A stretch of 54,810 nt of DNA from Phascolarctobacterium sp. (GTDB taxonomy: Bacteria; Bacillota; Negativicutes; Acidaminococcales; Acidaminococcaceae). Under the pieces are notes generated by a model. It was not told the DNA's origin, made no database searches, and saw nothing but the letters and a program-made list of their open reading frames with translations. Location: the NCBI RefSeq assembly GCF_030531065.1, contig NZ_JAUNOQ010000015.1, positions 1-54,810 of the forward strand. The letters run 5' to 3'. How positions within the stretch are numbered: position 1 is the stretch's first letter; each line of letters starts with the position of its first letter. Below are positions 8,174 to 15,171 of this stretch, piece by piece. Made by a program: the position numbers and the translations under genes.

Positions 8174-8898
8174 TTATCAGCCGCAGCGGCCAACGCCAGA
8201 GCGTGTACCTCCCGCGCGCCGGCAGCCAGCAGCACTCTTGCCGCTTCGGCCAGCGTGCTGCCCGTAGTATAAATATCGTCGCACAGCAAAATGTGTTTTC
8301 CCCGTACATCGACGCCGCCGTTCAGGCTAAAGCAGCCCGCCAGCTCCTGCCGCCGCTCCAAGGGCTGCAGCTCAAACAAGGGCGCAGTCCGACGCACGCG
8401 CCGCAATAAATCGCCGCAGTAAAGGCAGCTGCCGCCCACAGCCAGCAGCGGAGCAAACAGCTCCTGTGGCACGTCGAAGCCGCGCCGTTCCCTGCGCTCC
8501 GGCGAAGTCGGCACACAGGCCGCAAGGTCGTACTGCGACAGCCAGCGCAGTTTAGCCGCGGGCAGCGCCGCCTCCGCTTCCTCTCTCAGTAAAGGAAGCA
8601 GGCTGGCGTCCGCCGCGAACTTAATTTGCTGCAAAGCCTCCTTAATCGCTCCGTCATATTTATACAGCAGCATCACGCTGCTCAGCACGTCCTCCGGCAA
8701 GGGCGCGGCCTGCCCTGCCAAATATTCCTCCCGCGGCTGGCAGCGCCAAACGCGCCGCAGCAAATAATGCTTGCGGCAGGCAGCGCACACAAGGCCAGTA
8801 TCTATGGTCTGCCTGCAAACGGCGCAGCGGCGTACAAACACCAGCTCCTTAAGCAGCCGTAGATAATAATCTGCTTCCCACAGCCAATGCGGTTTCAT
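8155..8898 (-). CDS. comF: ComF-family phosphoribosyltransferase-like protein
   Basis: Competence-associated protein of 247 residues. The N-terminus has a zinc-finger pair (CAVCRQTID and LVCAACRKHY). The C-terminus has the PRPP-binding loop ILLCDDIYTTGSTL typical of type I phosphoribosyltransferases. ComF in naturally competent bacteria acts on the cytosolic side of DNA uptake. Outside such species the same protein is common and its role is unclear. It overlaps the upstream recD2 by 4 nt and the downstream permease by 19 nt, so the genes are translated as a coupled group. Confidence 0.9.
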   Translation of the reverse strand: MKPHWLWEADYYLRLLKELVFVRRCAVCRQTIDTGLVCAACRKHYLLRRVWRCQPREEYLAGQAAPLPEDVLSSVMLLYKYDGAIKEALQQIKFAADASLLPLLREEAEAALPAAKLRWLSQYDLAACVPTSPERRERRGFDVPQELFAPLLAVGGSCLYCGDLLRRVRRTAPLFELQPLERRQELAGCFSLNGGVDVRGKHILLCDDIYTTGSTLAEAARVLLAAGAREVHALALAAAADNWESEE

Positions 8899-11063
8899 CC
8901 AAAGACCTCCTGATCCTCCTGCAAGCGTTCGGCCAGCAGGCTGTGGCGACGTCTGGTCTTATCGTTTTCCACCGCCGTCAGCACGGCCCGCTTGCTGCCC
9001 ACAACCAACACCTGCTTTTTCGCGCGGGTCACAGCCGTATACAGCAGGTTGCGCTGCAGCATAATATAATGGCTGGGAACCATCAGCAGAATAACGCAGG
9101 GATATTCGCTGCCCTGGGATTTATGCACGCTCATAGCGTAGGCCAGCTGCAGCTCCTCGCACTCGCCCTGAGAATAGGTAACGTAATCGCCCTCCGGCCT
9201 CTCCGGAAAGCCTACGGTTACGCTCTTGCCCTCTATTTTCACGATGCGGCCTATATCGCCGTTAAAAACGTCCTTTTCATAATTATTGCGTATCTGCATC
9301 ACCTTATCGCCCAACCGCAGCACATTGCCTGGAATGCTTACCTCCGGCTTGCGCTCGCTGGGCGGATTGATGTAATGCTGCAAAAGCTTATTCAAATTCT
9401 GCACGCCGCAGGGACTTTTATGCATAGGCGACAGCACCTGCACCCGCCGCCAGTCCCCGTCCAGAGTCATCTGCGCATAGGTTTGCGCCACAAAGGAAGC
9501 GGCAGCCTGCTCGTCGGCAAATTCCTTCAGGCCAAACTCGCTATCGTCGCCGCTAGTAAACTCCGGCATTTGCCCATGATTGATTTTATGGGCGTTGCGC
9601 ACAATGGGGCTTACCTCCGCCTGCCGGAAAACATTTTCCAAGCGTACCACCGGCATCCGTCCCGACCGTATCATATCCTTGAGCACCGATCCTGCCCCCA
9701 CCGACGGCAGCTGGTCCACGTCGCCCACAAAAATTAAGCGGCAGCCGCCGGGCACGGCCTTTAATAAATGATAGGTCAAATTGATATCCAGCATGGAGGC
9801 CTCGTCAATGATGATAGCCTCCGCATCCAACGGATCCTCGTCGTCCTTGCCGAAGCACAGGCCGTCGCTGGTAGGCTGGTATTCCAAAAGACGGTGTACC
9901 GTCAGCGCCGGATGTCCGGCAGAATCCGCCAGCCTGCGCGCCGCACGACCCGTAGGCGCGGCCAGTAAAATACGGCAGCCCGCCTTTTCCAGCACATTCA
10001 AAATTCCCTTAACGACAGTGGTCTTGCCGGTGCCGGGTCCGCCGGTCAAAACAAACACGCCGTGCTCCAGGCTGGTATAAATAGCCTGTCTCTGAGCTTC
10101 CGCCAGCTTAATGCCGGCCTCCCGCTCCCAGGCGGCAATAACCTCATCGGCATTGACGCGGGTAATGGGTTTGCCCTGATCGCGTAAAAACAATAAGCGC
10201 CGGGCAGTCTGCACCTCGGCCCGGTATAAGTATTCCGGATAAATAAAACGTGTGCCGCCCACTTCTTCCAGGCGCAGCCTGTCCTTCTGCAAAAGCTCGT
10301 TAAAAATACGCTGCACCGCCTCGCTGTCCACCGCCAGCGCCCGCGCCGTTTCCCGTACCAAAAGCTCCTCCGGCACGCAGGTATGCCCCGCTCCGGCAGC
10401 AGCAGTCAGCGCGTAGCTGATGCCCGCCGTCAAACGCTCGCTGCAATCATGCTCCATACCCATAGCCATAGCAATGCGGTCGGCAGTTTTAAAGCCAATA
10501 CCTGCCACATCATCCGCCAGGCTGTAGGGGTTTTCCTTCAAGCGCATCATGGCAGTATTACCGTAAGCCGCCTGCAGCTTGGCCGCATAACCGCTGCTGA
10601 CGCCGTGGGTTTCCAAAAACAGCATTAAATCACGCAGGCCGGAAAGCTCGCCATAGGCTTCGCCGATTAAAGCCGCCTTTTTCGCGCTGATGCCCTTCAC
10701 CCGCGCCAGCTGCTCCGGGTACTGCCCTAAAATCTCCAGCGTATCCGTACCGAACATCTCCACAATGCGGGACGCCATCACCGCGCCCACTCCCGGTAAA
10801 GCGCCGGAAGCCAAAAAGCGCTCGATGCCCGCCGCCGACGTAGGCTGTACCACCGTCAGCGACGCTGCCTCAAACTGACGGCCAAAGCGCGCATGCTCCA
10901 CCCAGCCGCCGTTTAACGAAACATTTTCGCCCATATAGGGCGCAGGCCCGCGGTAAACGGCCGTAAAGCGTCCCTGCGCCTTATTGACCACGCGCAATAC
11001 GCTGTACATATTATCTTCGCTTTGAAAAACTATATCGCCAACAACGCCTTCCAGCTGTTCCAC
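8895..11063 (-). CDS. recD2: RecD2-type ATP-dependent DNA helicase
   Basis: Superfamily 1B helicase, 722 residues, the usual size for RecD2, the RecD form found in bacteria without RecBC. It carries N-terminal helix-hairpin-helix-like repeats (FLASGALPGVGAVMASRIV and ARVKGISAKKAALIGE). Walker A is GGPGTGKTTV (near residue 340), Walker B is IIIDEASMLD, and the late motif is AYAMSVHKSQGSEYP with LLYTAVTRAKK. It would act in 5'-3' unwinding during repair. It heads the recD2-comF-permease-dinB operon behind an extended -10 promoter. Confidence 0.95.
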   Translation of the reverse strand: MEQLEGVVGDIVFQSEDNMYSVLRVVNKAQGRFTAVYRGPAPYMGENVSLNGGWVEHARFGRQFEAASLTVVQPTSAAGIERFLASGALPGVGAVMASRIVEMFGTDTLEILGQYPEQLARVKGISAKKAALIGEAYGELSGLRDLMLFLETHGVSSGYAAKLQAAYGNTAMMRLKENPYSLADDVAGIGFKTADRIAMAMGMEHDCSERLTAGISYALTAAAGAGHTCVPEELLVRETARALAVDSEAVQRIFNELLQKDRLRLEEVGGTRFIYPEYLYRAEVQTARRLLFLRDQGKPITRVNADEVIAAWEREAGIKLAEAQRQAIYTSLEHGVFVLTGGPGTGKTTVVKGILNVLEKAGCRILLAAPTGRAARRLADSAGHPALTVHRLLEYQPTSDGLCFGKDDEDPLDAEAIIIDEASMLDINLTYHLLKAVPGGCRLIFVGDVDQLPSVGAGSVLKDMIRSGRMPVVRLENVFRQAEVSPIVRNAHKINHGQMPEFTSGDDSEFGLKEFADEQAAASFVAQTYAQMTLDGDWRRVQVLSPMHKSPCGVQNLNKLLQHYINPPSERKPEVSIPGNVLRLGDKVMQIRNNYEKDVFNGDIGRIVKIEGKSVTVGFPERPEGDYVTYSQGECEELQLAYAMSVHKSQGSEYPCVILLMVPSHYIMLQRNLLYTAVTRAKKQVLVVGSKRAVLTAVENDKTRRRHSLLAERLQEDQEVFG

Positions 11064-11122
11064 ACTGTACCACCACCGCTACTAATTTTATGCAAAAACA
11101 TTTGTTTTGATTTCACCTTTAT

Positions 11123-11131
11123 ATTATACCA
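11123..11131 (-). promoter_or_regulatory. extended -10 promoter of the recD2 operon
   Basis: Minus strand TGGTATAAT about 60 nt before the recD2 start. A -35 at 17 nt would be TGGCGC, which is poor, so the extended -10 probably carries recognition. Confidence 0.55.
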
Positions 11132-11180
11132 TGTCTGCCGCAGTTGCGCCATGTTTTTCGACGCCGCAAACGCATTTATC

Positions 11181-11209
11181 TTTACAAGCGGCAAGATTTT
11201 GGCTATAAT
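11181..11209 (+). promoter_or_regulatory. promoter of the SpeD-like gene
   Basis: TTTACA, 17-nt spacer, TATAAT on the plus strand, 85 nt before the GTG start. Confidence 0.75.
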
Positions 11210-11293
11210 AAAATACACAAAAAGAAACTTCTGTAAGCGCGCGTCGGTCGCGCCAAAGTAACCATGCTTTAATATTTTTTTAGGGGTGTAATT

Positions 11294-11776
11294 GTGAAGC
11301 CAAAGAATTTTATCGGTAAATTAATCGCTATAGATATGTATAATTGCGGCACGGAAGAAATTTCCGATCCCAAACTGGCCGAAGAGCTGCTGCTCAAGGG
11401 CTGTCAGGAATTTTCCCTGCAAAACCAGCAAATCATCTGCTGCCAGGAGGAAGGGCAGAACGAATACTCCTTGTTTGCTATCTGCCGCCAAGGCCACGTC
11501 ACGTTGCACGTCTATCCTGAATTCGGCTTTATGACCGCCGATATTTTCAGCTGCTTCGCCAAAGCCGACCCTGCCGCGATGGCCCGTTACCTGCGCGAAG
11601 CCTTCGACGCTGATAAATCCAAAATCACGCTGCTGGACCGCGGTGACTTTGGCAGCAAAAACGATATGAAGCCCACCCATCGGTCTAAAATTAAATTTAT
11701 TCGCCGCACGCAGAACGTAACGCAAAATGTCGGCGACAGATTGAAAAAGATGATGCTCAGGCCTCGTTCTCTGTAA
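11294..11776 (+). CDS. S-adenosylmethionine decarboxylase-like protein lacking the pyruvoyl serine
   Basis: 160-residue protein of the SpeD/AdoMetDC family. The conserved core reads CRQGH-VTLHVYPEFGF-MTADIFSC. Aligned with the T. maritima enzyme, His72 matches catalytic His68 and Cys87 matches Cys83. The autoprocessing Glu-Ser pair is replaced by Gln66-Gly67. Without that serine the proenzyme cannot form the pyruvoyl cofactor known for this family. The C-terminus is longer and basic (FIRRTQNVTQNVGDRLKK). GTG start with AGGGGTG upstream, own promoter, own terminator. No spermidine synthase or other polyamine gene is adjacent. It is therefore probably not a decarboxylase; a binding or regulatory role is possible but not shown. 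The fold assignment is more certain than the function. Confidence 0.75.
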   Translation: MKPKNFIGKLIAIDMYNCGTEEISDPKLAEELLLKGCQEFSLQNQQIICCQEEGQNEYSLFAICRQGHVTLHVYPEFGFMTADIFSCFAKADPAAMARYLREAFDADKSKITLLDRGDFGSKNDMKPTHRSKIKFIRRTQNVTQNVGDRLKKMMLRPRSL

Positions 11777-11785
11777 AAACGCACA

Positions 11786-11815
11786 AAAGCTGCCAGCAAA
11801 TTGGCAGCTTTTTTC
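11786..11815 (+). terminator. terminator of the SpeD-like gene
   Basis: AAGCTGCCA, 6-nt loop, TGGCAGCTT, then TTTT on the plus strand, 10 nt after the stop codon. Confidence 0.9.
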
Positions 11816-11848
11816 TATAGCACACGCTGTATTACGGGAGGAAAAGTT

Positions 11849-12544
11849 ATGAACTATCTTATGTGGGACGTCGACGGCACGCTGCTCTTAACCGGCGGCG
11901 CAGGCAAGGACGCGCTGATAAACGTCATTAAGGATTATTATTTTCTGGATGCCTTTGATTTTACTCAGTCCCTGGCCGGACGTACCGATTCCGACATTAT
12001 CAAAAAGGTTGTCACACGCCTGCGCGGTCGCTGCAATACCGCCGAAGCGGCAGGCATTCTGATTCGCTATCACAGCGAGCTGCCCAAGCAGCTACCCCTG
12101 CACCGGGGCAGAGTGCTGAAAAATGTGGAGCGCACTCTCGCCTACTTCCGGCGTCCGGACAGCAAATATCTGAACTGCCTGCTTACGGGCAACACTCGCA
12201 CGGGCGCTCAAGAAAAGCTGGCCTACTACAACCTGGACAAATATTTCTGCTTCGACCACAGCGTTTTCGGTGAAGTCAGCGAGAACCGGCAGGAGCTGGC
12301 GCGCATCGCCTTCTCCCGCTTGTATCTGGCTAATAACCAAAGCCTGTCGCCCAAGCAGCTCATCTTTATCGGCGATACGCCCAACGACGTGCTTTGCGCT
12401 CAGGCTATCGACGCCCGCTGCCTCATTGTTTTGGACGGATCCAGCTACCAAAGGCAGGATTTCGACAGCTGCCGTCCCTGGCGCGTTATCGACTGCCTGC
12501 CGGACGACCCGGCGCAGCTGGAAGCAATGCTGAACGAAGAATAA
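11849..12544 (+). CDS. HAD-superfamily phosphatase
   Basis: Haloacid dehalogenase-type hydrolase of 231 residues, subclass with a helical cap. Motif I is WDVDGTLLL, with both aspartates (D8, D10 region). Motif II is CLLTGNTRTG, and motif IV is FIGDTPNDVLCA. It probably dephosphorylates a small phosphometabolite such as phosphoglycolate or a sugar phosphate; the substrate is not readable. I chose the ATG at 11849, which has GGGAGG 7 nt upstream, over an earlier in-frame start that would run through the terminator before it. The next gene follows after 33 nt on the same strand and may be co-transcribed. Confidence 0.85.
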   Translation: MNYLMWDVDGTLLLTGGAGKDALINVIKDYYFLDAFDFTQSLAGRTDSDIIKKVVTRLRGRCNTAEAAGILIRYHSELPKQLPLHRGRVLKNVERTLAYFRRPDSKYLNCLLTGNTRTGAQEKLAYYNLDKYFCFDHSVFGEVSENRQELARIAFSRLYLANNQSLSPKQLIFIGDTPNDVLCAQAIDARCLIVLDGSSYQRQDFDSCRPWRVIDCLPDDPAQLEAMLNEE

Positions 12545-12577
12545 CCATATCAAGCTAACAGCTTTAAGGAGAAAAGT

Positions 12578-13336
12578 ATGTCTACCAAAAAAATTCTTAT
12601 TTATATTTATACAACCGCCCTGTTGGCCTGCCTGCCGCTTACAGCTCAGGCTTACAGCAACAGCGATTTGGCAGCCGTACAAAACGGCGCCAGCTGCGTC
12701 GGCGGCGACCTTTCCGGCGCAGACCTTTCCGGCATGGATCTGACGGGCCGCGATTTTACCGGCGCAGATTTTACCGAAGCGCGTTTGGAAGGCAGCAAGC
12801 TAGACAAAGCCAAGCTGCATAACGCCTGCTTCCGCAAGGCCATCCTGCACCGTGCCAGCCTGCGGGGAGCGTCGCTGGACGGCAGCGATTTCAGCTACGC
12901 TACGGCTACGGACGCCGACTTCACCAACGCTAACCTGCAAAGCGTACAGCTGTACCGCAGTCAGCTGCAGGGAGCCCAGCTGCTCAACGCCCAGCTGCTC
13001 AACGCCCAAATTCAGGAGGCTGTGCTGGACGGCGTCACAGCGGATTACGCCGATTTCAGCTACGCCAGCCTGCCCTATTCCTGGCTGCGGCAGGCCAGCT
13101 TGAAAAACGCCGTGTTTTACGGAGCTAATATGTACAGCACCCATCTGCAGCAGGCAGACCTGACAAACGCCGACCTGCGCAGCAGCAGGTTAGGCCACAG
13201 CGATATGCAGCGCAGCAAGCTGAATAAAGCCTTGCTGGACCGCGCCGTGCTGGAAAACGCCGACCTGCGGGGAGCAGATTTGGAGTATACGCAATTCGGC
13301 AGCGCCTTTAAGGACAACGCCAAAATGGATAAATGA
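12578..13336 (+). CDS. exported pentapeptide-repeat protein
   Basis: 252 residues. The N-terminus is a clear signal peptide (KKILIYIYTTALLACLPL, likely cut after AQA). From about residue 43 to the end the protein is built of tandem five-residue repeats of the form A(D/N)LXX, for example GADLSGMDLTGRDFTGADF and LENADLRGADLEY. This predicts a right-handed quadrilateral beta-helix. No additional domain is seen. Export is unusual because well-studied members that protect gyrase are cytoplasmic. In a diderm cell this one would act in the periplasm or on the outer membrane. Function unknown. AAGGAG ribosome-binding site 7 nt before the ATG. Confidence 0.85.
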   Translation: MSTKKILIYIYTTALLACLPLTAQAYSNSDLAAVQNGASCVGGDLSGADLSGMDLTGRDFTGADFTEARLEGSKLDKAKLHNACFRKAILHRASLRGASLDGSDFSYATATDADFTNANLQSVQLYRSQLQGAQLLNAQLLNAQIQEAVLDGVTADYADFSYASLPYSWLRQASLKNAVFYGANMYSTHLQQADLTNADLRSSRLGHSDMQRSKLNKALLDRAVLENADLRGADLEYTQFGSAFKDNAKMDK

Positions 13337-13353
13337 ATTATACATACCATGGC

Positions 13354-13387
13354 AAAAAGCCGCCTGACAAAAATCAGACGGCTTTTA
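13354..13387. terminator. bidirectional terminator between the pentapeptide gene and tRNA(CAU)
   Basis: Stem GCCGCCTGA/TCAGACGGC with an A-rich loop, with A-run and T-run on either side. It serves the plus-strand pentapeptide gene and the minus-strand tRNA. Confidence 0.85.
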
Positions 13388-13431
13388 TTATGCACAAAGT
13401 TAAGCTTAGGCAGTTCGTACACATAGAGGAT

Positions 13432-13506
13432 TGGTGGGCCCAGTAGGGTTCGAACCTACGACCAGCCGGTTATGAGCCGGCGGCTCTACCACTGAGCTAT
13501 AGGCCC
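13432..13506 (-). tRNA. tRNA with CAU anticodon (elongator Met or Ile2)
   Basis: Cloverleaf on the minus strand: acceptor GGGCCTA/TGGGCCC, anticodon loop CTCATAA, T-loop GGTTCGAACCC, encoded CCA. The CAU anticodon reads Met unless C34 is changed to lysidine, which would make it Ile2. The sequence alone does not settle which. It is not an initiator, because the anticodon stem lacks the three G-C pairs next to the loop. Confidence 0.9.
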
Positions 13507-13528
13507 ATACAAGCTACCAAACAGTAAT

Positions 13529-13557
13529 ATTTTATAATAGTATTTAGTTTATGTCAA
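13529..13557 (-). promoter_or_regulatory. promoter of tRNA(CAU)
   Basis: Minus strand TTGACA, 17-nt spacer, TAAAAT, placed between the rpoD stop and the tRNA. Confidence 0.8.
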
Positions 13558-13560
13558 GAT

Positions 13561-15171
13561 CTACTCTAAAAAGTCCTTCAGCTTTTTGCTGCGACTGGGA
13601 TGACGCAGCTTGCGCAAAGCCTTGGCTTCAATCTGACGGATACGCTCGCGGGTTACGCCGAAATGCTGGCCGACCTCTTCCAGCGTACGCGACCGCCCGT
13701 CCTCCAGGCCAAAACGCAGCTCCAGCACACGCTTTTCGCGCACCGTAAGGGTTTCCAGAACCTCCTCCAGCTGTTCGCGCAGCAGAGTAAAGGAAGCGGC
13801 GTCCGCAGGCGCAGGCGCGTCGTGATCCTCGATAAAATCGCCTAAATGTGAATCCTCTTCCTCGCCAATAGGCGTCTCCAAGGACACAGGCTCCTGAGCG
13901 ATCTTCATAATTTCACGCACCCTGTCCACCGTCGTATCCATTTCCTTAGCGATTTCTTCCGGCAACGGCTCGCGCCCCAGCTCCTGCAGAAGCTGACGGG
14001 AAACGCGAATCAGCTTGTTGATAGTTTCCACCATATGTACAGGAATGCGGATAGTGCGCGCCTGATCGGCAATAGCGCGGGTTATGGCCTGACGAATCCA
14101 CCAAGTAGCGTAGGTGCTGAATTTGAAGCCTTTATTATAATCGAATTTTTCAACTGCTTTGATAAGGCCCAAATTACCCTCCTGAATCAAATCCAGGAAT
14201 AGCATGCCGCGCCCTACATAACGCTTGGCAATGCTGACTACCAAGCGCAGATTGGCTTCGGACAAGCATTTCTTAGCATCGTTGCCCTGCTGGCGCACTG
14301 CCTTAAGCAGCTTATCATAGTTTTCGCTGAAATCAAGGTATTGCCCTGCCAGAGTCGTATCCTTTTCACGACCGTCGGAAAGCCGGGCCTTCAGCTCGTC
14401 CAGCAGTGCCTTTAATTGATAAAGATTATGGATATCCTTATCGCTGGTAGGACGGTTGACTACCAACCGCTCGCATTCGGGAATCAGGCATTTCTGCTCC
14501 ACCATCAAGCGCTGCAAATGCAGGCGTTCGTCACGGGTAAATTCAAAAATCAAATCCTGATAGTCCTCTATTTTATAAGGATTGCCCTCCTCCTGACGCT
14601 CCCGAATCATCTGCAGAACCTTGAAAACAGAACGCATATTGGTCATATGCCATTCTTCCTTCATATACTGTCCGATTTTATCCAGTAGCGCCTTACTGTC
14701 GTCAGCAACGCTGAAAACCGGCGCGTCCAGCGTAATCATTTTCCCGCGCAACAAACGCTCGGCCTGACGGCCCTTATCCATGCGCTTAGCCAGCTTAATC
14801 TCGTCCTCGCCCACCAGCAGAGGCACGCGCCCGATCTCCTTCAGATACATACGTACCGGGTCGTCAATGCTGATGCCTTCGGGAACGGAAAGGTTGGCTA
14901 ATTCGGCCTCGTTGATTTCTTCTGTTTCCACATTATCGTCATTTTCGACCATGGGCAGCACGTCTTCATCAGCGGAATTGTCATCAACTATCTCCATACC
15001 CTTGCGTGTAATAACCTCGTACAAATGCTCCACATCATCTGAGGATACGGTGTCTAACGTGCTGATAGCACTCATAATGTCACGATAAGTGAGAACACCA
15101 TTCTGCGATTTGCCCTTCTGCAGCAGCTCTTCAATTTGCTCCTGTGACAGCTTGTTAGTAGTTTCTTCCAT
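13561..15171 (-). CDS. rpoD: RNA polymerase primary sigma factor
   Basis: Housekeeping sigma factor of 536 residues. Region 1.2 ([17 protein letters not shown]) is at about 103-119. Regions 2.1-2.4 ([19 protein letters not shown] to [18 protein letters not shown]) are at about 304-370. Region 3 follows, and region 4.2 ([20 protein letters not shown]) is at about 496-515. It is much longer than the 371-residue B. subtilis SigA because about 160 residues (roughly 135-297) separate regions 1.2 and 2.1. The place corresponds to the non-conserved region of proteobacterial RpoD. The ATG at 15171 has GGAGGG 6 nt upstream; earlier in-frame starts lie inside dnaG. It follows dnaG directly, the order known from many Firmicutes. 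Confidence 0.97.

Follow-up and report, generated by a model that had tools for sequence, protein, structure and literature searches.

An extended SpeD homologue of the Negativicutes that has repeatedly lost its self-cleavage serine may work as a pseudoenzyme

The class 1b AdoMet decarboxylase SpeD is represented by the T. maritima enzyme (TM0655, PDB 1TLU and 1VR7), in which self-cleavage at a Glu-Ser pair provides the pyruvoyl group and which is also available as a non-processing S63A mutant (1TMI). SpeD homologues with new activities are already known: PMC10407285 describes SpeDC and SpeDA, which are ornithine or arginine decarboxylases instead of AdoMet decarboxylases, are sometimes found as second copies in a genome, and conserve the equivalents of Ser63, His68 and Cys83. 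The AdoMet decarboxylase fold also occurs without cleavage in the trypanosome prozyme (PMC5201418) and in the degraded second domain of a SpeD fusion from Victivallis vadensis (PMC10407285).

The present analysis concerns a SpeD-like gene located in the window, i.e. the whole stretch of 54,810 nucleotides of Phascolarctobacterium sp. DNA that was analysed. Its open reading frame (11294-11776, + strand) is intact, internal stops being absent, and the following features were recognised in and around it.

11181..11209, + strand: sigma-70-like promoter TTTACA-17-TATAAT (11/12 consensus positions; consensus match only)
11294..11776, + strand: gene of the probable SpeD-derived pseudoenzyme, 160 aa, GTG start (PF02675, 74.6 bits)
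11315..11641, + strand: AdoMet-decarboxylase-fold core, about residues 8-116 (predicted structure, pLDDT >90 over most of it)
11489..11497, + strand: Gln66-Gly67-His68, replacing the self-cleavage Glu-Ser-His (translation, profile alignment, column table)
11507..11509, + strand: His72, counterpart of the catalytic His68 of T. maritima SpeD (profile alignment, column table)
11552..11554, + strand: Cys87, counterpart of the catalytic Cys83 of T. maritima SpeD (profile alignment, column table)
11639..11674, + strand: family-specific C-terminal motif RGDFGSKNDMKP, residues 116-127 (alignment of full-length members)
11675..11773, + strand: basic tail, residues 128-160 (charge count; helix predicted with low confidence)
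11785..11812, no strand assigned: hairpin with flanking A/T runs, just 3' of the stop codon (terminator scan)

On the upstream side lies the divergent recD2 (8895-11063, - strand), found within 7 kb of the SpeD-like gene in 27 of 30 loci of family f1; on the downstream side come the hairpin, to which the scan gives a terminator score for the - strand alone and at chance level (1 found vs 1.2 expected), a HAD-type hydrolase and a pentapeptide-repeat protein. The latter (12578-13336, + strand) shows by eye a signal-peptide-like start and exceeds one NCBIfam cut-off (Alr5209 family), and its gene adjoins the SpeD-like gene in 20 of 30 f1 loci. A tRNA (13434-13506, - strand, 70.9 bits) is located between the pentapeptide gene and a sigma-factor-like ORF.

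The window protein is homologous to class 1b SpeD over the whole domain (Pfam PF02675 AdoMet_dc, residues 12-117, 74.6 bits, E 9.4e-21, Pfam cut-off 25) and remains under the cut-off of the enzyme-level equivalog model NCBIfam TIGR03330 (62.8 bits, cut-off 75.65). Gln66-Gly67-His68 aligns on Glu62-Ser63-His64 of T. maritima SpeD (1TLU), His72 on His68 and Cys87 on Cys83, all with unchanged spacing (profile alignment, column table). The catalytic His and Cys of class 1b SpeD are retained and the Glu-Ser pair is missing; with Gly67 at the position of Ser63, the protein also lacks the serine shared by SpeDA and SpeDC. A preliminary description had reported these same substitutions and spacings, and is confirmed in every particular. 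It had also inferred that the fold was kept, in agreement with AlphaFold2 models built with 50 or 142 relatives, in which most of residues 8-116 have a pLDDT >90. Aligned with VIA-align, the first model gives Z 18.2 and rmsd 1.7 with T. maritima SpeD (115 aligned residues, 21% identity), Z 18.1 with the non-processing mutant 1TMI and Z 16.0 with 2III, another SpeD from bacteria. Beyond class 1b SpeD, the highest-scoring structure (Z 10.8) is the N-terminal domain of human spermine synthase, which serves dimerisation and is not known to self-process; Med18/20, Iml3, DcrB and others matched below Z 8. Model confidence is low at the C-terminus, with pLDDT of about 56-62 in the last four ten-residue blocks (142 relatives) and about 59 for the motif and tail when the protein is modelled without a partner, which may weakly hint at a part needing a partner, of which such values are expected.

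Chance or sequencing error was ruled out as the origin of the serine loss: the closest homologue, at 79% identity in Phascolarctobacterium sp. and the only one found by the scan of genome contigs, likewise displays QGH, and Gly occupies the cleavage position in 106 of the 172 distinct rows aligned from fetched loci, the others having Ser (46), Ala (7), Cys (5), Thr (3), Phe (2), His (1), Val (1) or a gap (1). Once L002, a canonical SpeD that lacks the extension, and the two halves of a split gene (L139) were dropped, 169 full-length members from 169 genomes remained; Ser is kept in 45 of them and absent in 124, and the full Glu, Ser, His, His, Cys set is found in only 23. The split gene, in genome G114 (L139, L140; family f15), extends over two frames and is either a pseudogene or an assembly error. 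The tripeptides now present at the cleavage site include EGH, QGH, DGH, RGH, GGH, NAH, HCH and others, and members of the class have lost Ser many times over; QGH was not found to mark one clade and is one of many end states. Sorted by group code, Ser is present in every sampled member of 15 groups, in no sampled member of another 15 and in part of the members of 4, the named Acidaminococcaceae record being counted separately from f1. A FastTree phylogeny of 170 rows (146 columns, three site columns excluded) implies at least 12 Ser/not-Ser changes, a figure giving an order of magnitude since this unrooted tree, used for the change count only, is poorly resolved, its branches being long and many of its forks open. 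The best fit is an ancestor that bore Ser, followed by repeated loss, as it is unlikely that precisely the Glu-Ser-His/His/Cys set would be regained. Nothing points to a relocated cleavage nucleophile, such as the neighbouring serine that had been considered, since no other Ser, Thr or Cys at residues 57-90 attains 80% conservation among the 124 members without Ser.

The family is characterised by a C-terminal motif of the form RGDFGxxxD-M-K-P placed after the core and followed by a basic tail, and the window protein has both. The pattern [DE][MILVA][KRM]P, defined post hoc from the alignment, is present together with a tail of 26-51 residues in 169/169 full-length members. The net charge of this tail is +6 to +20 in all of them (median +9), so that the basic tail pointed out in the preliminary description is real and a hallmark of the family. 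Its amphipathicity is only a tendency, 77 of the 169 members falling under the 10% level of shuffles vs about 17 expected; the window protein (0.195) is not among these 77. All of 142 non-redundant members share Asp14, Arg116 and Pro127, and among them Cys18, His68, His72, Asp83, Thr112, Gly117 and Asp124 reach at least 90%. The gene is under purifying selection, with dN/dS of 0.013-0.120 in 19 pairs (some dS values being saturated) and of 0.064 between the window protein and its nearest relative.

Active-site positions and binding-loop positions have had different fates in the 124 Ser-less members. Asp14, Cys18, His68, His72 and Asp83 are still conserved at 93-100%, His72 being replaced by Arg, Gln, Asp or Asn in some members, and Cys87 is kept in only 67%. 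Cys18, His68, His72 and Asp83 are equally conserved in canonical SpeD, where position 14 is Glu or Asp. The binding-loop residues Phe52, Pro55, Gln56 and Gly57, found at 96-100% in the 23 intact members and at 100% in 24 canonical SpeDs, lose their conservation in the Ser-less group, and the window protein has Glu52, Gln55, Asn56 and Glu57 instead. The canonical Phe corresponds to Phe49 of T. maritima SpeD, which stacks on the adenine. The earlier suggestion that the pocket is largely kept and may bind AdoMet is unsupported, because binding-site residues were lost together with the Ser.

A profile built from 50 relatives matched the extended SpeD in 197 of 200 Negativicutes genomes sampled at >=90% completeness, and the three genomes without a match (G011, G125, G031) all come from the window's own family. 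The names of class and families rest on one named relative, a Phascolarctobacterium, together with general taxonomy. In a phylum sample of 199 genomes (6 in the class, 193 outside), 138 matched, hence by subtraction 132 of the 193 outside; among the outside-class matches listed, all stop at model position <=125, the exceptions being in G297, G326 and G398, where the match continues past a stop codon. None of the 24 outside-class proteins whose last 50 residues were inspected carries the D-M-K-P motif. An extension outside the class was rejected, as the read-through sequence beyond the stop in G297 and G398 (one match each, of the three genomes) has no motif. The hypothesis of a mobile or phage gene was also rejected: phages gave no match, plasmids a single weak one, and PHROGs and PADLOC only SpeD families or noise.

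The window protein is the single PF02675 protein of its genome. This situation is shared, as counted by eye, among 54 of the 197 genomes (the window genome included) which have no other PF02675 protein, so that in these the extended protein has no active SpeD to serve; two or more PF02675 matches are found in each of the 45 genomes that keep Ser (also by eye). A class 2 AdoMet decarboxylase (PF01536) was sought as a replacement and matched in 0 of 13 genomes and not in the window genome, in searches whose control was equally silent and which do not establish its absence. The window genome contains a gene run encoding a PLP-type decarboxylase, SpeE, a carboxynorspermidine synthase-like protein (under its cut-off), NspC, AguA and AguB. 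Its SpeE (G000:C19:141572-142384; L278:6570-7412, + strand) is above its NCBIfam cut-off, and the same gene order is found in L284-L286 of family f15. The SpeE of the window genome thus occurs without a recognisable active AdoMet decarboxylase that would account for its aminopropyl donor; judging from gene content, spermidine could come from the aspartate-semialdehyde route described in PMC11999265, for which no AdoMet decarboxylase is needed. SpeE was found in 169 of the 200 class genomes and the SpeD-like gene is kept in 30 of the 31 others; G001 and G006, from the same genus as the window, have the SpeD-like protein and no SpeE. Being kept in genomes without either, the gene is tied neither to active SpeD nor to SpeE.

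Elsewhere than in f1, the usual neighbour is a ctsR-mcsA-mcsB-clpC block on the opposite strand (CtsR and McsA named by eye; McsB, ClpC, RadA-like and DisA by Pfam domains). Of 121 loci, 44 have ctsR and 46 have clpC within 7 kb, and ctsR lies 20-271 bp from the SpeD-like gene in 7 of 29 further short loci. In these seven (L115, L117, L119, L123, L125, L126, L128) ctsR is divergent, and a shared intergenic control region is possible. The link is found in 0 of 42 loci of family f15. McsB (PF00217) was identified in 144 of the 200 class genomes, much more weakly in family f34, and no f1 (Acidaminococcaceae) genome is listed among them. CtsR-type boxes, searched by consensus upstream of the 169 members, do not exceed the shuffled level, and membership of the CtsR regulon was rejected. 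We take the adjacency as an ancestral position and not as a functional tie. No riboswitch naming a ligand was found in window positions 9000-14000 or in 20 short loci, and the loci examined contain neither a conserved operon pointing to a pathway nor a recognised polyamine gene adjoining the SpeD-like gene.

Taken together, we consider it somewhat probable that the extended SpeD is a class-wide Negativicutes pseudoenzyme, working via its fold and C-terminal tail and not by catalysis. An ancestral class 1b AdoMet decarboxylase would have gained the C-terminal extension (RGDFGxxxDMKP and a basic, probably helical tail) and a second, extension-dependent function; the enzymatic function would then have become dispensable, and Ser would have been lost many times while fold and extension stayed under selection. 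The SpeD-fold core, presumably dimeric as in known class 1b enzymes, may be a scaffold presenting the D-M-K-P motif and the charged tails to a partner that would be anionic (RNA/ribosome or inner-membrane surface) or a protein, the whole playing a structural or regulatory role that involves no catalysis; we infer the dimer, the partner and the role of the tail as working part. That Ser was lost repeatedly while nearly all genomes kept the gene, under purifying selection and with a new motif that does not vary, argues that for the conserved function the pyruvoyl group was either never required or dispensable from early on. The retention of His68 (98%) and His72 (93%) in the Ser-less group could mean remaining chemistry or ligand binding and counts against the pseudoenzyme reading, as do an amphipathicity that is only a tendency and the want of a conserved operon pointing to a pathway. 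As a rather improbable elaboration, this pseudoenzyme would be a core protein that occurs almost throughout the diderm Negativicutes and defines this class, and whose motif and tail dock the scaffold at the inner membrane or the ribosome to control a class-specific polyamine process, e.g. diamine supply for the polyamine-modified peptidoglycan tethering the outer membrane.

The main rival is a ligand sensor, in which the remodelled pocket would bind a polyamine, agmatine, another cation or a nucleoside and the tail would relay the signal. It holds this place because members without Ser still conserve His68, His72 and Asp83, as they do Cys18; moreover, relatives of the fold bind AdoMet, ornithine or arginine (PMC10407285), and the class-wide presence of the gene parallels the polyamine-linked peptidoglycan reported for Negativicutes (PMC10628300). 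We nevertheless judge such a sensor unlikely, given that the canonical Phe52, Pro55, Gln56 and Gly57 are unconserved in the same members, that neither a riboswitch nor an adjoining recognised polyamine gene was found and that 30 of 31 sampled genomes without SpeE keep the gene. The retained Asp14, Cys18, His68, His72 and Asp83 could also belong to a pyruvoyl-independent enzyme with a new reaction based on the kept Cys/His/Asp, which is possible but less likely because Cys18, His68, His72 and Asp83 are conserved in ordinary SpeD as well, with Glu or Asp at position 14, and may serve the fold; the unconserved pocket loop, the partial retention of Cys87 and the substitutions of His72 further disfavour it.

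A role as an activator that pairs with either an active SpeD or SpeE has precedents in the dead trypanosome paralogue that pairs with AdoMetDC (PMC5201418) and in human spermine synthase, whose SpeD-like domain, matched here at Z 10.8, pairs with its transferase domain. The second PF02675 match of all 45 Ser-keeping genomes (by eye) and the SpeE of the window genome would suit such a role, which is made quite improbable by the 54 of 197 genomes (by eye), that of the window among them (G000), whose sole PF02675 match is the extended protein itself, and by G001 and G006, which have the protein without SpeE. The divergent position of the gene near the ctsR block in many families outside Acidaminococcaceae and f15, within 7 kb of ctsR in 44 of 121 loci and at 20-271 bp in 7 of 29 shorter ones, would fit a proteostasis factor tied to the CtsR-McsA-McsB-ClpC locus; we hold this to be very improbable since the link is missing from all 42 f15 loci, no f1 genome figures among the 144 of 200 with McsB and yet the gene is kept there, and upstream CtsR boxes, searched by consensus, do not exceed the shuffled level. 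A decaying relic of SpeD, finally, is hardly credible: catalytic and binding residues are eroded, one gene is split into two frames (G114) and 3 of 200 genomes lack it, but dN/dS and the retention in 197 of 200 genomes already contradict decay, as does the invariant motif. The pseudoenzyme reading is retained over these alternatives. The class-wide retention, the repeated Ser loss and the fixed C-terminal motif make a second, non-enzymatic SpeD function directly testable, and for these gut and oral bacteria the database label 'AdoMet decarboxylase' can suggest more spermidine synthesis than there is.

Compared with known systems, the window protein shares with class 1b SpeD the fold over residues 5-125 and the His72/Cys87 positions, and differs by the missing Glu-Ser, an altered binding loop and about 45 extra residues bearing the D-M-K-P motif and basic tail. 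SpeDC and SpeDA depend on self-cleavage at Ser, whereas the extended Negativicutes family dispenses with it. The prozyme and the V. vadensis domain resemble the window protein by their uncleaved AdoMetDC fold, but both are coupled to an active SpeD, none of which was found in the window genome. The AdoMetDC-like domain of human spermine synthase (PDB 3C6K) is fused to an aminopropyltransferase, while the window protein stands alone with its own extension. A class-wide extended SpeD family was not found described in the open-access literature, most subscription journals lying outside this search. Dead AdoMet decarboxylases are already known from the prozyme and the degraded V. vadensis domain, and what may be new is the class-wide extended family: those found in the literature are partners of a live enzyme, whereas here the protein is kept also where no other SpeD was found.
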